This document shows, piece after piece, positions 53,126 to 56,767 of a stretch of 64,000 bases of DNA (its first letter is position 1; each line of letters begins with the position of its first letter). The DNA lies in the IMG/VR virus record IMGVR_UViG_3300037149_000105, positions 1 through 64,000 of that record; one strand, given 5' to 3'. Both the position numbers and the translations under genes were made by a program. A model generated the notes under the pieces. It was given only the letters and a program-made list of their open reading frames with translations. It was not told the origin of the DNA and made no database searches. Source of the stretch: a virus.

Positions 53126-53161
53126 GGGGGCCGGTAAATATCTGGTCCCCATTTTTCTTTT
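53126..53161 (+). terminator. Intrinsic terminator after rIIB
   Basis: Nine paired bases, GGGGGCCGG (53126-53134) with CTGGTCCCC (53142-53150) including two G-T pairs, enclose the loop TAAATAT. A T-rich run, ATTTTTCTTTT, follows at 53151-53161. This ends the rIIA/rIIB transcription unit 28 bases after the stop. Confidence 0.85.
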
Positions 53162-53162
53162 T

Positions 53163-53191
53163 GTCTCCCCCATGGGTGAGTGGATTGAAAC
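53163..53191 (+). repeat. CRISPR-repeat-like hairpin 1 (type I-C style)
   Basis: This 29-base element reads GTC, then CTC-C-CCC paired through an AT loop with GGG-T-GAG, then TGGATTGAAAC. The end TGGATTGAAAC and the opening GTC match the frame of type I-C CRISPR repeats, where Cas5 cuts at the stem base to leave a handle ending GATTGAAAC. It begins two bases after the terminator's T-run. Two more copies with different stems lie at 53208 and 54539. Confidence 0.7.
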
Positions 53192-53207
53192 TGTTATGGT
53201 TAGACAA

Positions 53208-53243
53208 GTCTCAGAAGCATCACCCTTCTGAGTGGATTGAAAC
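53208..53243 (+). repeat. CRISPR-repeat-like hairpin 2, longest stem
   Basis: This 36-base element consists of GT, then a perfect eight-pair stem CTCAGAAG/CTTCTGAG around loop CATCACC, then TGGATTGAAAC. Only 16 bases separate it from hairpin 1, too short for a usual spacer. It ends 16 bases before a TTG start with GAGG ahead of it (53260), so it lies in that gene's leader. Confidence 0.7.
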
Positions 53244-53259
53244 TAAGAAAGAGGCTGCT

Positions 53260-53451
53260 TTGCTCATACCACTTCCTCACCACAGTTTAAATCGTGAAAC
53301 TTCCGAACGTCTCCTTAAGCTCAGGGCATTGCTGCTCAAGATCCTTCAGGAGGCCCCCGATTCAGTTAGAGAAGAGGTATCCGAAAAGGCCCTCGCCATT
53401 TATTCCGCAATTCAGCAAGAAATTTTCAAGGAGCAATCAAATGGAACGTAA
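53260..53451 (+). CDS. Small helical protein, 63 aa
   Basis: The same frame is open from an ATG at 53122, but that ATG lies at the foot of the terminator and the frame would run through both hairpins, so I start at TTG 53260 with GAGG five bases ahead. The product is mostly one or two helices with regular Leu (ERLLKLRALLLKILQEAPDS, then VREEVSEKALAIYSAIQQEI). The stop overlaps the RNA ligase start by 11 bases, so the two are coupled. It could be a small partner or regulator of the ligase. Alternative TTG or GTG starts further upstream cannot be excluded. Confidence 0.5.
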   Translation: MLIPLPHHSLNRETSERLLKLRALLLKILQEAPDSVREEVSEKALAIYSAIQQEIFKEQSNGT

Positions 53452-54517
53452 ACTGGCTAGTATCCAACGCATCCTCGCTCTGGACCCCATCGAAGGGGCC
53501 GATAGGATTGAGGTGGCCACCATTCAGGGATGGAAGGTGGTAGTGCAGAAAGGACTCCACAAAGTAAGCGATCTCGTGGCATATTTCGAGATAGATTCAT
53601 GGGTGCCGACTGAAGTTGCCCCTTTTCTCACCAAGGTTGGACAGGAACCTCGTGAATACGAAGGGGTTCGGGGTGAACGACTCCGCACGGTAAAACTGAA
53701 GGGGCAGGTATCTCAAGGGATTATTCTTCCCCTCAGCGATTTTGCAAATCTTCCTCTCCCTCCCTACGATTTTCTCATGGGAAAATGGAATCAGGAGGGA
53801 CTGGACATCACCGAGCAACTGGGCGTCATCAAATATGAACCCCCAATCCCTGCTTGCCTCGCCGGTCAGGTCAAAGGTATGTTCCCCAGCTTCATCCGCA
53901 AGACCGATCAGGAACGAATCCAGACCCTTCCCGAGTTCTTCGAGGAATATAAGGATATGGGCTTCGAAGTCACGATCAAACTTGATGGTTCGAGCATGAC
54001 CGTCTACCACCGGAATGGAGATACCGGAGTTTGCAGCCATAATCTAGATCTCAAAGAGGACCAGAACAACTCCTTCTGGAAGATTGTCAACCGTCTGAAC
54101 CTTGTTGAACTCCTGAATCACCTGGGACTCAACGTAGCTATCCAAGGGGAATTGATTGGAGAGGGAATCCAAGGAAATCATGAGAAACTCAAGGGTCAGG
54201 AACTCTTTGTCTTCGATATTTGGGACATTGATGCCCACCGCTACATGACCCGCCAGGAGCGTCAGGATGTCCTCCAGGCTCTCGAAGCTCTCCTCCCCAA
54301 GGGGGAGCACATCTATTCCGTCCCTGTCGTCCACGAGGACATGAAGGTCTTCCAGACCTACCCAACAATGGAAACCATCCTCGTCTTTGCTGGAGCAGGC
54401 CCAAGTCTCAACGCTCAGATTAGAGAGGGGCTGGTTTTTAAATCCACCTCTCTGGTTAACGGCGAAACGGTAAGTTTTAAAGTTATAAATAATAAATATC
54501 TCCTGAAAGAAAAATAA
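53441..54517 (+). CDS. RNA ligase, DRB0094 (Rnl5) family
   Basis: This 358-aa protein has its ATG at 53441 after AAGGAGC. It joins RNA ends through a ligase-AMP intermediate. Residues 1-125 form an OB-type domain typical of this family (LRTVKLKGQVSQGIILPL near 81). The catalytic domain has motif I KLDGSS at 180-185 with Lys180 as the AMP acceptor, Glu237 in IQGELIG, FVFDIWD at 256-262, motif IV EGLVFKS at 329-335 and motif V SFKVINNKYL at 345-354. Phage RNA ligases often repair host-damaged tRNA. Here the gene lies between CRISPR-repeat-like hairpins, which may be relevant to its substrate. Confidence 0.92.
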   Translation: MERKLASIQRILALDPIEGADRIEVATIQGWKVVVQKGLHKVSDLVAYFEIDSWVPTEVAPFLTKVGQEPREYEGVRGERLRTVKLKGQVSQGIILPLSDFANLPLPPYDFLMGKWNQEGLDITEQLGVIKYEPPIPACLAGQVKGMFPSFIRKTDQERIQTLPEFFEEYKDMGFEVTIKLDGSSMTVYHRNGDTGVCSHNLDLKEDQNNSFWKIVNRLNLVELLNHLGLNVAIQGELIGEGIQGNHEKLKGQELFVFDIWDIDAHRYMTRQERQDVLQALEALLPKGEHIYSVPVVHEDMKVFQTYPTMETILVFAGAGPSLNAQIREGLVFKSTSLVNGETVSFKVINNKYLLKEK

Positions 54518-54538
54518 ATATCAAACACTCCTACAAAG

Positions 54539-54567
54539 GTCTCTCCCACGGGAGAGTGGATTGAAAC
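54539..54567 (+). repeat. CRISPR-repeat-like hairpin 3 (most canonical)
   Basis: This 29-base element consists of GT, a perfect stem CTCTCCC/GGGAGAG with loop AC, then TGGATTGAAAC. In length and layout it is nearly indistinguishable from a type I-C CRISPR repeat. It stands alone, ends 17 bases before the ATG of the HNH gene at 54585, and is followed by that gene's AAGGTG ribosome site. Confidence 0.75.
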
Positions 54568-54584: not shown

Positions 54585-55142
54585 ATGACGAGTGGTAGTA
54601 AAAAATTTCACAAGAAGGCACTGGGGGATCAGGTGATCGCCGTCGATATGCACTTTATGCCAATGATGGCAGTTAGTCGTCGTCATGCTCTCAAGGCTCT
54701 GGCCACTGAGAGGGCTGAAGCTCTAGATCTGGAGACCTGGACTCGCAAGGCTCTCTATGAGATCACCGACATCCACGATTTTGCCTGTATTCTCTATCCA
54801 GGTGTGCAAGCGATCAAGGATACGAAGCTGAAACTCGGAAAGGGTTACAGGGGCATCCTTGAACGGGATGAGCACATCTGCCAGTACTGTGGTAAGAAGG
54901 CCAATACTGTTGACCATGTGATGCCCAAGTCAAGAGGTGGGGGCTCTGCTCCTAACAACCTTGTAGCTGCCTGCCTCGCTTGCAATCAAAAGAAGGCTGA
55001 TCGAACTCCAACAGAGGCCGGAATGCCTTTAATTCACGCGATTCATGCAACCCGGTGGAAACTGATGGAGCAGTTCCATGAACTGACCGTTAGCTGGTCA
55101 TATCGCAGAAAGAAGATGGACGAAGATGTCAAGATTGCCTAA
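54585..55142 (+). CDS. HNH endonuclease, McrA-like
   Basis: The product is 185 aa from ATG 54585 (AAGGTG ahead); a TTG at 54561 lies inside hairpin 3 and is rejected. The N-terminal part (AVSRRHALKALATERAEALD) and the segment GVQAIKDTKLKLGKGYRGIL precede a clear HNH motif: ERDEHICQYCGKKANTVDHV at 93-112 with Cys99/Cys102 and Asp110-His111, KSRGGGSAPNNLVAACLACN at 115-134 with Asn125 and Cys130/Cys133, and KKADRTPTEAGM. This form is typical of small HNH nucleases near phage restriction or homing systems. Substrate unknown. The end overlaps the next gene by 17 bases. Confidence 0.9.
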   Translation: MTSGSKKFHKKALGDQVIAVDMHFMPMMAVSRRHALKALATERAEALDLETWTRKALYEITDIHDFACILYPGVQAIKDTKLKLGKGYRGILERDEHICQYCGKKANTVDHVMPKSRGGGSAPNNLVAACLACNQKKADRTPTEAGMPLIHAIHATRWKLMEQFHELTVSWSYRRKKMDEDVKIA

Positions 55143-55635: not shown

Positions 55636-55664
55636 CATCCTCCCCTCCCTAAACGGAGGGGATT
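55624..55664 (-). ncRNA. TnpB element right end and predicted guide-RNA 3' end
   Basis: On the minus strand the tnpB stop lies inside a hairpin TCCCCTCC (55662-55655) / GGAGGGGA (55648-55641), followed by GGATGTCAAC. This matches the usual right end of IS200/IS605-type tnpB elements, where the guide RNA scaffold ends and the guide begins. A short palindrome GTCAAC-G-GTTGAC (55624-55636) marks the junction with the neighbour gene. The guide would be the sequence just beyond, reading into the end of the 55126-55635 gene. Confidence 0.7.
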
Positions 55665-56767
55665 CCTAGCCGTAGAGTCTGATGTCCCAGACCGAGACGG
55701 AGTATATTTTGAGCAGCGTTTACATCTCTATTATGAGACGCTCCGCATTCAGAGCATACCCAATCTCTTACCGACAGCCCACTTAGTCCTTTCGGGCCGG
55801 TGAGGGCGGCACAGCCGCCACACCGCTGGGTTGTCCAAGCTTCATTAACGATTCGGACTACCTTGCCAAGCTTAATAGCTTTATAAGACAAGAAGTTCAG
55901 AACCATACTGATACCCGCATCCAAGGTAGATTTGCAAGCTTTCAAATGTAAATCCCCAACTATGATTAAATCATAGGAATTAATCAGATTTGTGGTCAAT
56001 TTGTGCAAATAATCTTTGCGTTGATTTTTGATTCGGGCGTGAATAGATTTTGTTTGATTCTTATGTTTAGCTCTCTGAGCGGTTGCAAGCCTAGCTTGCG
56101 ATTTGTAATAAAACTTTTCATTAGAATAACTGATCGAATCAGAGCTAGTCGCTATGGATTTCAAACCTAAATCAACTCCTACTTGAGTTTTAAACTCTAC
56201 CAGTTGGGAGACTTTCCCAATCTCAACTTGCAAGTTTATGAACCAATTCCCCTTGGAATCCTGATTAAAACTACCAGTCCTGATATCAGCTTCGCTGAGA
56301 TTAATGGCGTTATAATGAGAATCGAAGAATTTAAACTTATGTTTACAATAGATGAACAAGTTATTTTTAAATCTCAAGGCGGAAGCTTTGAATGGTATCC
56401 ACCCGAGAACGCATTTATAGCTCCGCCAGCGAAGCTTTTGTTTCTTGAATTGTTTGCGCCTAGTAATATATTCTTTACATATGGATTGGACGGTTGTAGA
56501 GTTCAAACCCAATTCGCCCGCACAGCCAGCCGTCTGGTTGTCAAGTTCATACTCGCTGGCCCATTTCGAATACTTCTTGAGTTGGTTATAACTCTGTTCA
56601 TTACAATAGTTCCATACCAGATTGACCGCAGAACTCATCCGAATCAAGATTTTTCTTGAAACGGAGTCCTTGAGTCTGTAATGGAGAGTAATAATCATGT
56701 GTGTATCTATTTAATACTCAGAAAGTTTGATTTTGCTCATGGCACAAAGTATCCGGTAATACATCTT
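55636..56767 (-). mobile_element. Stand-alone tnpB element (IS605-type), limits tentative
   Basis: The right end is the hairpin at 55641-55662. The left end should lie between the tnpB start (56698) and the hairpin at 56768. The 95 bases of 56699-56793 carry no gene and are AT-rich near 56699-56735. The element lies between two plus-strand genes on the opposite strand. No target duplication is expected for this family. Confidence 0.6.
55649..56698 (-). CDS. tnpB: TnpB, RNA-guided nuclease with rearranged RuvC site
   Basis: The product is 349 aa, a normal TnpB length. RuvC-I Asp176 is in VGVDLGLKS. The strand that usually carries the catalytic Glu reads IIVGDLHLK, with Gly248 in its place. 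A Glu at 286 lies in RIVNEAWTTQRCGGC, 38 residues later. RuvC-III Asp325 is in HNRDVNAAQNI, and the zinc Cys are 293, 296, 315 and 318. Known TnpB and Fanzor proteins with such a displaced Glu are active nucleases. TnpB uses RNA made from the element's end to cut a target beside a short motif, which keeps the element in place. No TnpA transposase gene is nearby, so movement would need help from another source. Opposite strand to its neighbours. Confidence 0.93.
   Translation of the reverse strand: MIITLHYRLKDSVSRKILIRMSSAVNLVWNYCNEQSYNQLKKYSKWASEYELDNQTAGCAGELGLNSTTVQSICKEYITRRKQFKKQKLRWRSYKCVLGWIPFKASALRFKNNLFIYCKHKFKFFDSHYNAINLSEADIRTGSFNQDSKGNWFINLQVEIGKVSQLVEFKTQVGVDLGLKSIATSSDSISYSNEKFYYKSQARLATAQRAKHKNQTKSIHARIKNQRKDYLHKLTTNLINSYDLIIVGDLHLKACKSTLDAGISMVLNFLSYKAIKLGKVVRIVNEAWTTQRCGGCAALTGPKGLSGLSVRDWVCSECGASHNRDVNAAQNILRLGLGHQTLRLGIPSV

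Follow-up and report, generated by a model that had tools for sequence, protein, structure and literature searches.

The locus around the RNA ligase gene of this phage raises the question of whether short hairpins that share one frame and differ in their stems are mimics of host type I-C CRISPR repeats or leader elements of the genes that they precede. The window spans positions 1 to 64,000 of an IMG/VR phage record of 147,410 bases (147 kb). A preliminary description had placed three such elements in the window, and all three are found at those places (E1-E3), while a fourth (E4) lies beyond it in the same record.

Repeat-like elements in phage leaders

The elements and the features around them are as follows, with window coordinates except where stated.

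53126..53162, + strand: terminator-like hairpin with T-run, GGGGGCC...GGTCCCC (ATTTTTCTTTTT), directly 5' of E1
53163..53191, + strand: E1, I-C-repeat-like element GTCTCCCCCATGGGTGAGTGGATTGAAAC, 29 nt, weak stem of 6 bp with a bulged U
53208..53243, + strand: E2, I-C-repeat-like element GTCTCAGAAGCATCACCCTTCTGAGTGGATTGAAAC, 36 nt, 8 bp stem
53260..53451, + strand: small gene of 63 codons downstream of E2, TTG start, Shine-Dalgarno sequence (SD) AGAGG
53441..54517, + strand: RNA ligase gene, PF09414 with a PHA02142 OB-fold domain
54539..54567, + strand: E3, I-C-repeat-like element GTCTCTCCCACGGGAGAGTGGATTGAAAC, 29 nt, stem of 6 bp as folded (7 complementary)
54585..55142, + strand: HNH endonuclease gene (PF01844) with its ATG at 54585, downstream of E3
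94893..94924 of the record, + strand: E4, I-C-repeat-like element GTCTCATGGCCGTGCCATGAGTGGATTGAAAC, 32 nt

All four elements consist of GT, a stem of 6-8 bp and the 11-nt handle UGGAUUGAAAC. Exactly three exact matches to TGGATTGAAAC occur in the window, all on the + strand and each preceded by a stem. The handle alone was used as query for the phage's own record and 29 further records; in the 147,410-base record, GTGGATTGAAAC is found four times forward and not in reverse (control 0/0), against a chance expectation that we calculate as about 0.02 (4^-12 x 2 x 147,410). Folded in isolation, each of E1-E4 forms a hairpin that leaves two bases unpaired at the 5' end and 11 nt free as a 3' tail. 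Of the three paired stems described previously, that of E1 is the weak one, with a shuffle z of 0.18, and in the best fold of the 118-nt leader the E2 hairpin is formed and that of E1 is absent. E1 may have decayed. E1 and E2, whose stems differ, are arranged in tandem ahead of one gene with 16 nt between them. The distances of 16 and 17 nt between E2 and E3 and their start codons were given correctly, and E4 ends 15 nt before its start. The competing idea of leader control was right as to position. No promoter is apparent just upstream of E1-E4, and no Rfam matches were obtained in the window.

The small gene behind E2 gave no Pfam match, and its start region is conserved in the related loci L016 and L017. 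The gene behind E4 encodes a TROVE-like/DUF2828 RNA-binding protein. An IS605-type TnpB-like gene, recognised by eye from its translation, adjoins the element-bearing operon on the - strand (window 55649-56698).

Correspondence to type I-C CRISPR repeats

The proposed match of the frame to type I-C repeats is borne out by real arrays. The elements have the sequence form of these repeats, GTC...stem...G followed by the 11-nt handle TGGATTGAAAC/T. Scanning 84,980 species genomes with the GTCTC form returned 77 stretches, mostly plain CRISPR arrays, and the GTCTC...GAGTGGATTGAAA frame is present in arrays of Clostridia, Chloroflexota, Coriobacteriales and Streptococcus. Clostridial array repeats mostly end in AAAT, and AAAC ends include those of Chloroflexota (GTCTCTCCCTTCATTGGGAGAGTGGATTGAAAC; GTCTCTCCCTGCATAGGGAGAGTGGATTGAAAC) and Coriobacteriales. 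E3 is identical to the Anaerolineales (Chloroflexota) repeat GTCTCTCCCTTCATTGGGAGAGTGGATTGAAAC save for a shorter loop, and the 3' part of E1 is common to GGGTGAG-type repeats. The stems of E2 and E4 are absent among the 77 loci, a set limited by the search pattern. Repeat length is 33 nt in 66 of the 77 stretches and 32 or 34 nt in the others; the phage elements depart from this constant length of about 32-34 nt, measuring 29 (E1), 36 (E2), 29 (E3) and 32 nt (E4).

After Cas5d processing, the RNA carries a 5' handle of 11 nt and a hairpin as its 3' handle (PMC5965380), and the hairpin plus the 3' overhang are recognition features of Cas5d (PMC6546361). The hairpin and handle kept in the phage elements are the parts that Cas5d recognises or leaves, which supports reading the elements as repeat mimics. 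No Cas5 (PF09704), the one cas family searched for, was found in the phage's own record or in 29 other records, element-bearing or related (30 in total), which counts against a phage-encoded CRISPR-Cas system. A CRISPR array or mini-array was rejected, as it needs near-identical repeats and regular spacers, and only E1 and E2 are close to each other, 16 nt apart and with differing stems.

Covariation across the viral collection

Inside the window, the covariation previously claimed involves few sequences; across the phage collection it is very strong. A viral scan with GTCTC...GAGTGGATTGAAAC identified 11 stretches, several of them in very large phages (contigs of 485, 279 and 129 kb), with stems that differ and are mostly paired. 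The wider frame GTCNC...GNGTGGATTGAAAC gave at least 120 matches, and solitary units of the same frame are found in at least about 90 IMG/VR contigs. Because the frame was built into the search pattern, its conservation in this viral set is not independent evidence. A control with the handle reversed returned four stretches, all of them holding one identical unpaired 32-mer. In several phages, among them G002 (485 kb), G012 and G027, two or more units with differing stems are present.

Among the matches listed, 108 distinct solitary elements, unselected for pairing, gave z values of 10.0, 10.7, 7.0, 5.5 and 4.8 at the free pairs 2, 4, 5, 6 and 7 when compared with partner-shuffled sets, and pair 4 occurs as all six standard pair types. 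In the 33 elements of 32 nt among these matches, 95.2% of cells are paired, the covariation score is 0.49 compared with 0.15 in shuffles (0/500 shuffles as high), and changes on both sides affect 37 cells versus 8.1 in shuffles; all slid registers show far lower covariation than the true one. Selection on RNA structure, as first suggested from the three elements of the window, is thereby confirmed among the matches listed. U-G pairs are common in the stems of these matches, which favours RNA over DNA hairpins.

Genomic settings of solitary units

Open reading frames, promoters and terminators were called with simple scripts for 89 units among the matches listed. In 23 of the 89 units, the SD and start codon of a same-strand ORF of 80 codons or more lie within 50 nt, compared with 7 in mirrored positions (p = 0.004); with ATG starts only, the numbers are 19 and 2 (p = 0.0002). 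Eight of the 89 units are preceded by a -10 box (TATAAT-like) ending 4-6 nt before the unit, where about 1.3 would be expected from other positions. The RNA would in such cases begin with the unit, as in L136 (TTGACA-17-TATAAT-5-GTC) and L008. A terminator no more than 110 nt downstream was found for 8 units and for none in mirrored positions. There are accordingly two settings: small-RNA-like promoter-repeat-terminator units, as in known Racrs, and mRNA leaders, as for E2-E4. The genes behind leader copies encode Gp23-like capsid, head decoration, tail chaperone, SbcC-like, sigma factor, SLT lysin, TROVE and HNH proteins.

Two further observations concern solitary units elsewhere. Tandem copies of the final four handle bases often follow the unit (AAAC AAAC AAAC in L007/L015, L068, L105, L107 and L095; AAAT AAAT AAA at 13.03 kb of G001), forming an unstructured linker to the SD. 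Satellite phages of Streptococcus, from S. dysgalactiae and S. canis, carry a solitary I-C repeat mimic, GTCTCACCTTTCATGGGTGAGTGGATTGAAAT, close to their integrase gene, for instance at 1355-1385 of MK448333.1 (L297).

Turnover in related phages and search for a host

The frame that the preliminary description proposed to look for in related phages is present there, in a patchy manner. The closest long relative, G001 (313 kb), which is 75-99% identical along the record, has no exact copy of any element and one degenerate copy elsewhere. At the E3 slot, G001 reads CTTCTACAAAGGTGCAACCATG, L016 has CTTCTACAAGAGTCTCCCTATGGGGAGTGGATTGAAACTACAAAGGTGCAACCATG with another stem, as is also the case in L304, and the slot is empty in L017 and L303. 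In L016 and L017, the terminator-like hairpin at 53126..53162 is kept, and a sigma70-type promoter (TAGACA-17-TATAAT) between terminator and SD replaces E1 and E2. The leader at the E4 slot differs in G001 and is without an element, and the 99% identical relative G005 keeps E4 unchanged. Finally, the 82.0 kb slot holds a degenerate unit in G001, ATCTCACGAGAAATTGTGAGCGGATTGAAAT with AAATAAATAAAGGAG after it, and no unit in the present phage, with downstream DNA that is 99.7% identical between the two. Element lengths range from 27 to 36 nt in the present lineage and its relatives. As the elements come and go in leaders, they are accessory to the downstream genes, and their presence or absence at the same slots argues against an essential cis signal. 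A mobile hairpin with target-site duplication was considered and rejected: CTACAA flanks the L016 insert, and no duplication is found at the E4 or 82-kb slots.

The host was sought through 834 spacers of GTCTC-type I-C arrays, which gave only chance matches of 15-20 nt. The DnaB-like helicase has a single match in named phages, at 29% identity, to Tunturiibacter phage Tunturi_5 (Acidobacteriota host), in which GTGGATTGAAA is entirely absent. An Acidobacteriota host was not accepted on account of the missing GTGGATTGAAA.

Other RNA features near the elements

A leader RNA-like motif, GAC.C..(A/G)CAGCAA ... G.GTCT(A/T)G, often with a T-run, is conserved before TROVE/DUF2828 genes and near tRNA genes. 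G000 has it in two places, near 94.84-94.89 kb (upstream of 2501 in L306) and near 81.95-82.05 kb; it is also found in L307, L309, L310, L313, L314 and L315, and at about 1.35 kb of L011. The motif gave no Rfam match at gathering score; it is possibly a phage Y RNA, i.e., the Ro/TROVE ligand. E4 and the degenerate G001 unit lie directly 3' of such Y-RNA-like motifs, and the L011 unit lies about 40 nt downstream of one. In L309, the slot that runs from the Y-RNA-like T-run to the SD, immediately 5' of 2501, holds GTCCCATCGTGGGAC, a GTC-starting hairpin without the I-C handle, and the empty slots in G000 (82 kb) and L307 have a small hairpin covering the SD. The phage also encodes a tmRNA (19236-19639 of L253, about 83.1-83.5 kb of G000; also in L260 of the relative G001) with the tag ATINVVDFDRSFVPSFAEVA, and its gene adjoins a cluster of at least 11 tRNA genes.

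Proposed function and alternatives

On balance, the sequences lead us to favour the reading that E1-E4 are probably solitary mimics of host I-C repeats in the 5' leaders of phage mRNAs, bound or cut by Cas5c (Cas5d) and serving mainly as decoys. In RNA, the GU-stem-loop with the 11-nt tail UGGAUUGAAAC is what Cas5c (Cas5d) recognises and cuts in pre-crRNA. During infection of an I-C host, Cas5c would bind the leaders, with probable cleavage at the 3' base of the stem; the cut phage mRNA would then start with a crRNA 5' handle and could collect Cas5c and Cas7, and their diversion from real crRNAs would constitute a Racr-like decoy. Phage solitary repeat units acting as RNA anti-CRISPRs, which had been invoked for the window, have a precedent in RacrIC1, an I-C solitary repeat unit that was tested and inhibits I-C immunity (PMC10651486), and by analogy an anti-CRISPR role of E1-E4 is plausible. 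We infer the transcription of E1-E4, their binding and cutting by Cas5c and a net anti-CRISPR effect. The freedom of the stems fits recognition of stem shape plus handle, and it might also limit recombination between copies. Several points count against the mimic reading: lengths of 27-36 nt and stems depart from host repeats, whereas tested Racrs are close to theirs; the 834 GTCTC-type I-C spacers gave no match; Cas7 loaded on a leader would impede the phage in translating its own gene; G001 (313 kb) lives with a single degenerate copy; and E1-E4 lack an apparent promoter just upstream.

The position of the elements could instead reflect cis control via host Cas proteins, with Cas5c or Cascade cutting or covering the leader and the gene being processed, repressed or released by I-C status. 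E2, E3, E4 and the L016 element are separated from start codons by 15-17 nt, cleavage would occur shortly 5' of the SD, leader positions are enriched in IMG/VR (23/89 versus 7, among the matches listed), and Cas-dependent repression through CRISPR-repeat-like sequences is known, as discussed in PMC10651486. However, the downstream genes share no common function, the slots of relatives are without an element though the genes are kept, gene-less small-RNA forms exist, and a single gene has both E1 and E2, in tandem, ahead of it; we consider this explanation unlikely. The diversity of downstream genes together with the gene-less forms favours a function in trans, and the constant distance to the SD would allow an effect in cis; a position in the leader and recognition by Cas proteins are compatible. 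A hairpin independent of Cas, which would shield or shape the mRNA or be cut by another host or phage RNase, with its likeness to the handle having another reason, is in our view no likelier than cis control. The elements do follow T-runs or sit at +1 of promoters and precede SDs, and plain or SD-covering hairpins occupy other slots (GTCCCATCGTGGGAC in L309, and the empty slots), but retention of all 11 handle bases is not expected of a generic hairpin, the handle and GTC start are the exact ends of I-C repeats, and the reversed-handle control gave one unpaired sequence only.

Captured or decaying host repeats without function, acquired by recombination or stray integration, would be in line with the patchy distribution in relatives, with CTACAA flanking the L016 insert as a short duplication might, and with the degenerate appearance of E1. 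Yet differing stems that stay paired, a single orientation relative to genes and the location of E1-E4 all on the + strand need selection, and other slots have no duplication, making capture still less likely than the leader explanations. It could also be speculated that the elements are DNA hairpin promoters for a phage RNA polymerase, cf. the N4 virion RNA polymerase promoters, since E1 and E2 occupy the place of the sigma70-like promoter of relatives between terminator and SD. This is very improbable: many stems contain G-U pairs, the units of L008, L044, L136 and others lie just downstream of a sigma70 -10 box and would hence be transcribed, and the 82-kb slot of the phage's own record keeps its gene without an element.

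Returning to repeat mimicry, a more far-reaching form of it is put forward tentatively, and we regard it as possible rather than probable. Here, diverse structure-only mimics in working mRNA leaders, cut by Cas5c and capped with the crRNA handle, would make up a large Cas5c/Cas7 sponge or messages switched by the host's CRISPR-processing enzyme, without a dedicated small RNA gene. If the mimic reading is right, RNA anti-CRISPRs would ride on ordinary phage messages, beyond small RNAs beside acr genes, and mimics whose stems change freely while pairing would escape identity-based searches, so that more phages would be counted as using repeat mimicry. The elements would also offer a direct test of which bases are required by Cas5c, and would connect CRISPR processing enzymes with the expression of phage genes.

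Comparison with known systems

Compared with type I-C repeats, the substrates of Cas5c/Cas5d, the phage elements are alike in the GTC start, the stem and the 11-nt handle TGGATTGAAAC; they differ from I-C arrays in lacking an array or spacers of 33-36 nt, in each having its own stem and in the lack of a cas5 match in the record. Virus-borne CRISPR mini-arrays, which serve inter-virus competition, resemble them as repeats in virus genomes without cas genes (PMC11656645). However, mini-arrays have spacers between near-identical repeats, whereas E1 and E2 are unlike each other and have no more than 16 nt between them.

The closest likeness is to Racrs, including RacrIC1, as described by Camara-Wilpert et al. 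2023 (PMC10651486). Like these, the phage elements are lone I-C repeat mimics in intergenic virus DNA that keep the stem-loop and handle and are not in arrays. In contrast to RacrIC1, which lies downstream of acrIC5, they are found in 5' leaders before the SDs and starts of unrelated genes, and they differ from Racrs in that one phage carries several stems, in stem and loop lengths not seen in real repeats and in the tandem of E1 and E2. According to the same source, Racr candidates cluster with acr genes; the published survey covered intergenic regions of IMG/VR3, required 90% or more in both identity to and coverage of known repeats, discarded candidates whose flanking 100 bp held partial matches, and arrived at 2,103 viral units (PMC10651486). 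Judged by these filters, at least E1 and E2 would probably be dropped, their tandem being at odds with the flank rule. In the part of the survey that is available, no mention was found of leaders or of several stems per phage, and SRUFinder is not named in the other literature searched. The kind, solitary I-C repeats, is already known; the form described here, leader-borne, multi-stem and structure-only, is a variant of it.
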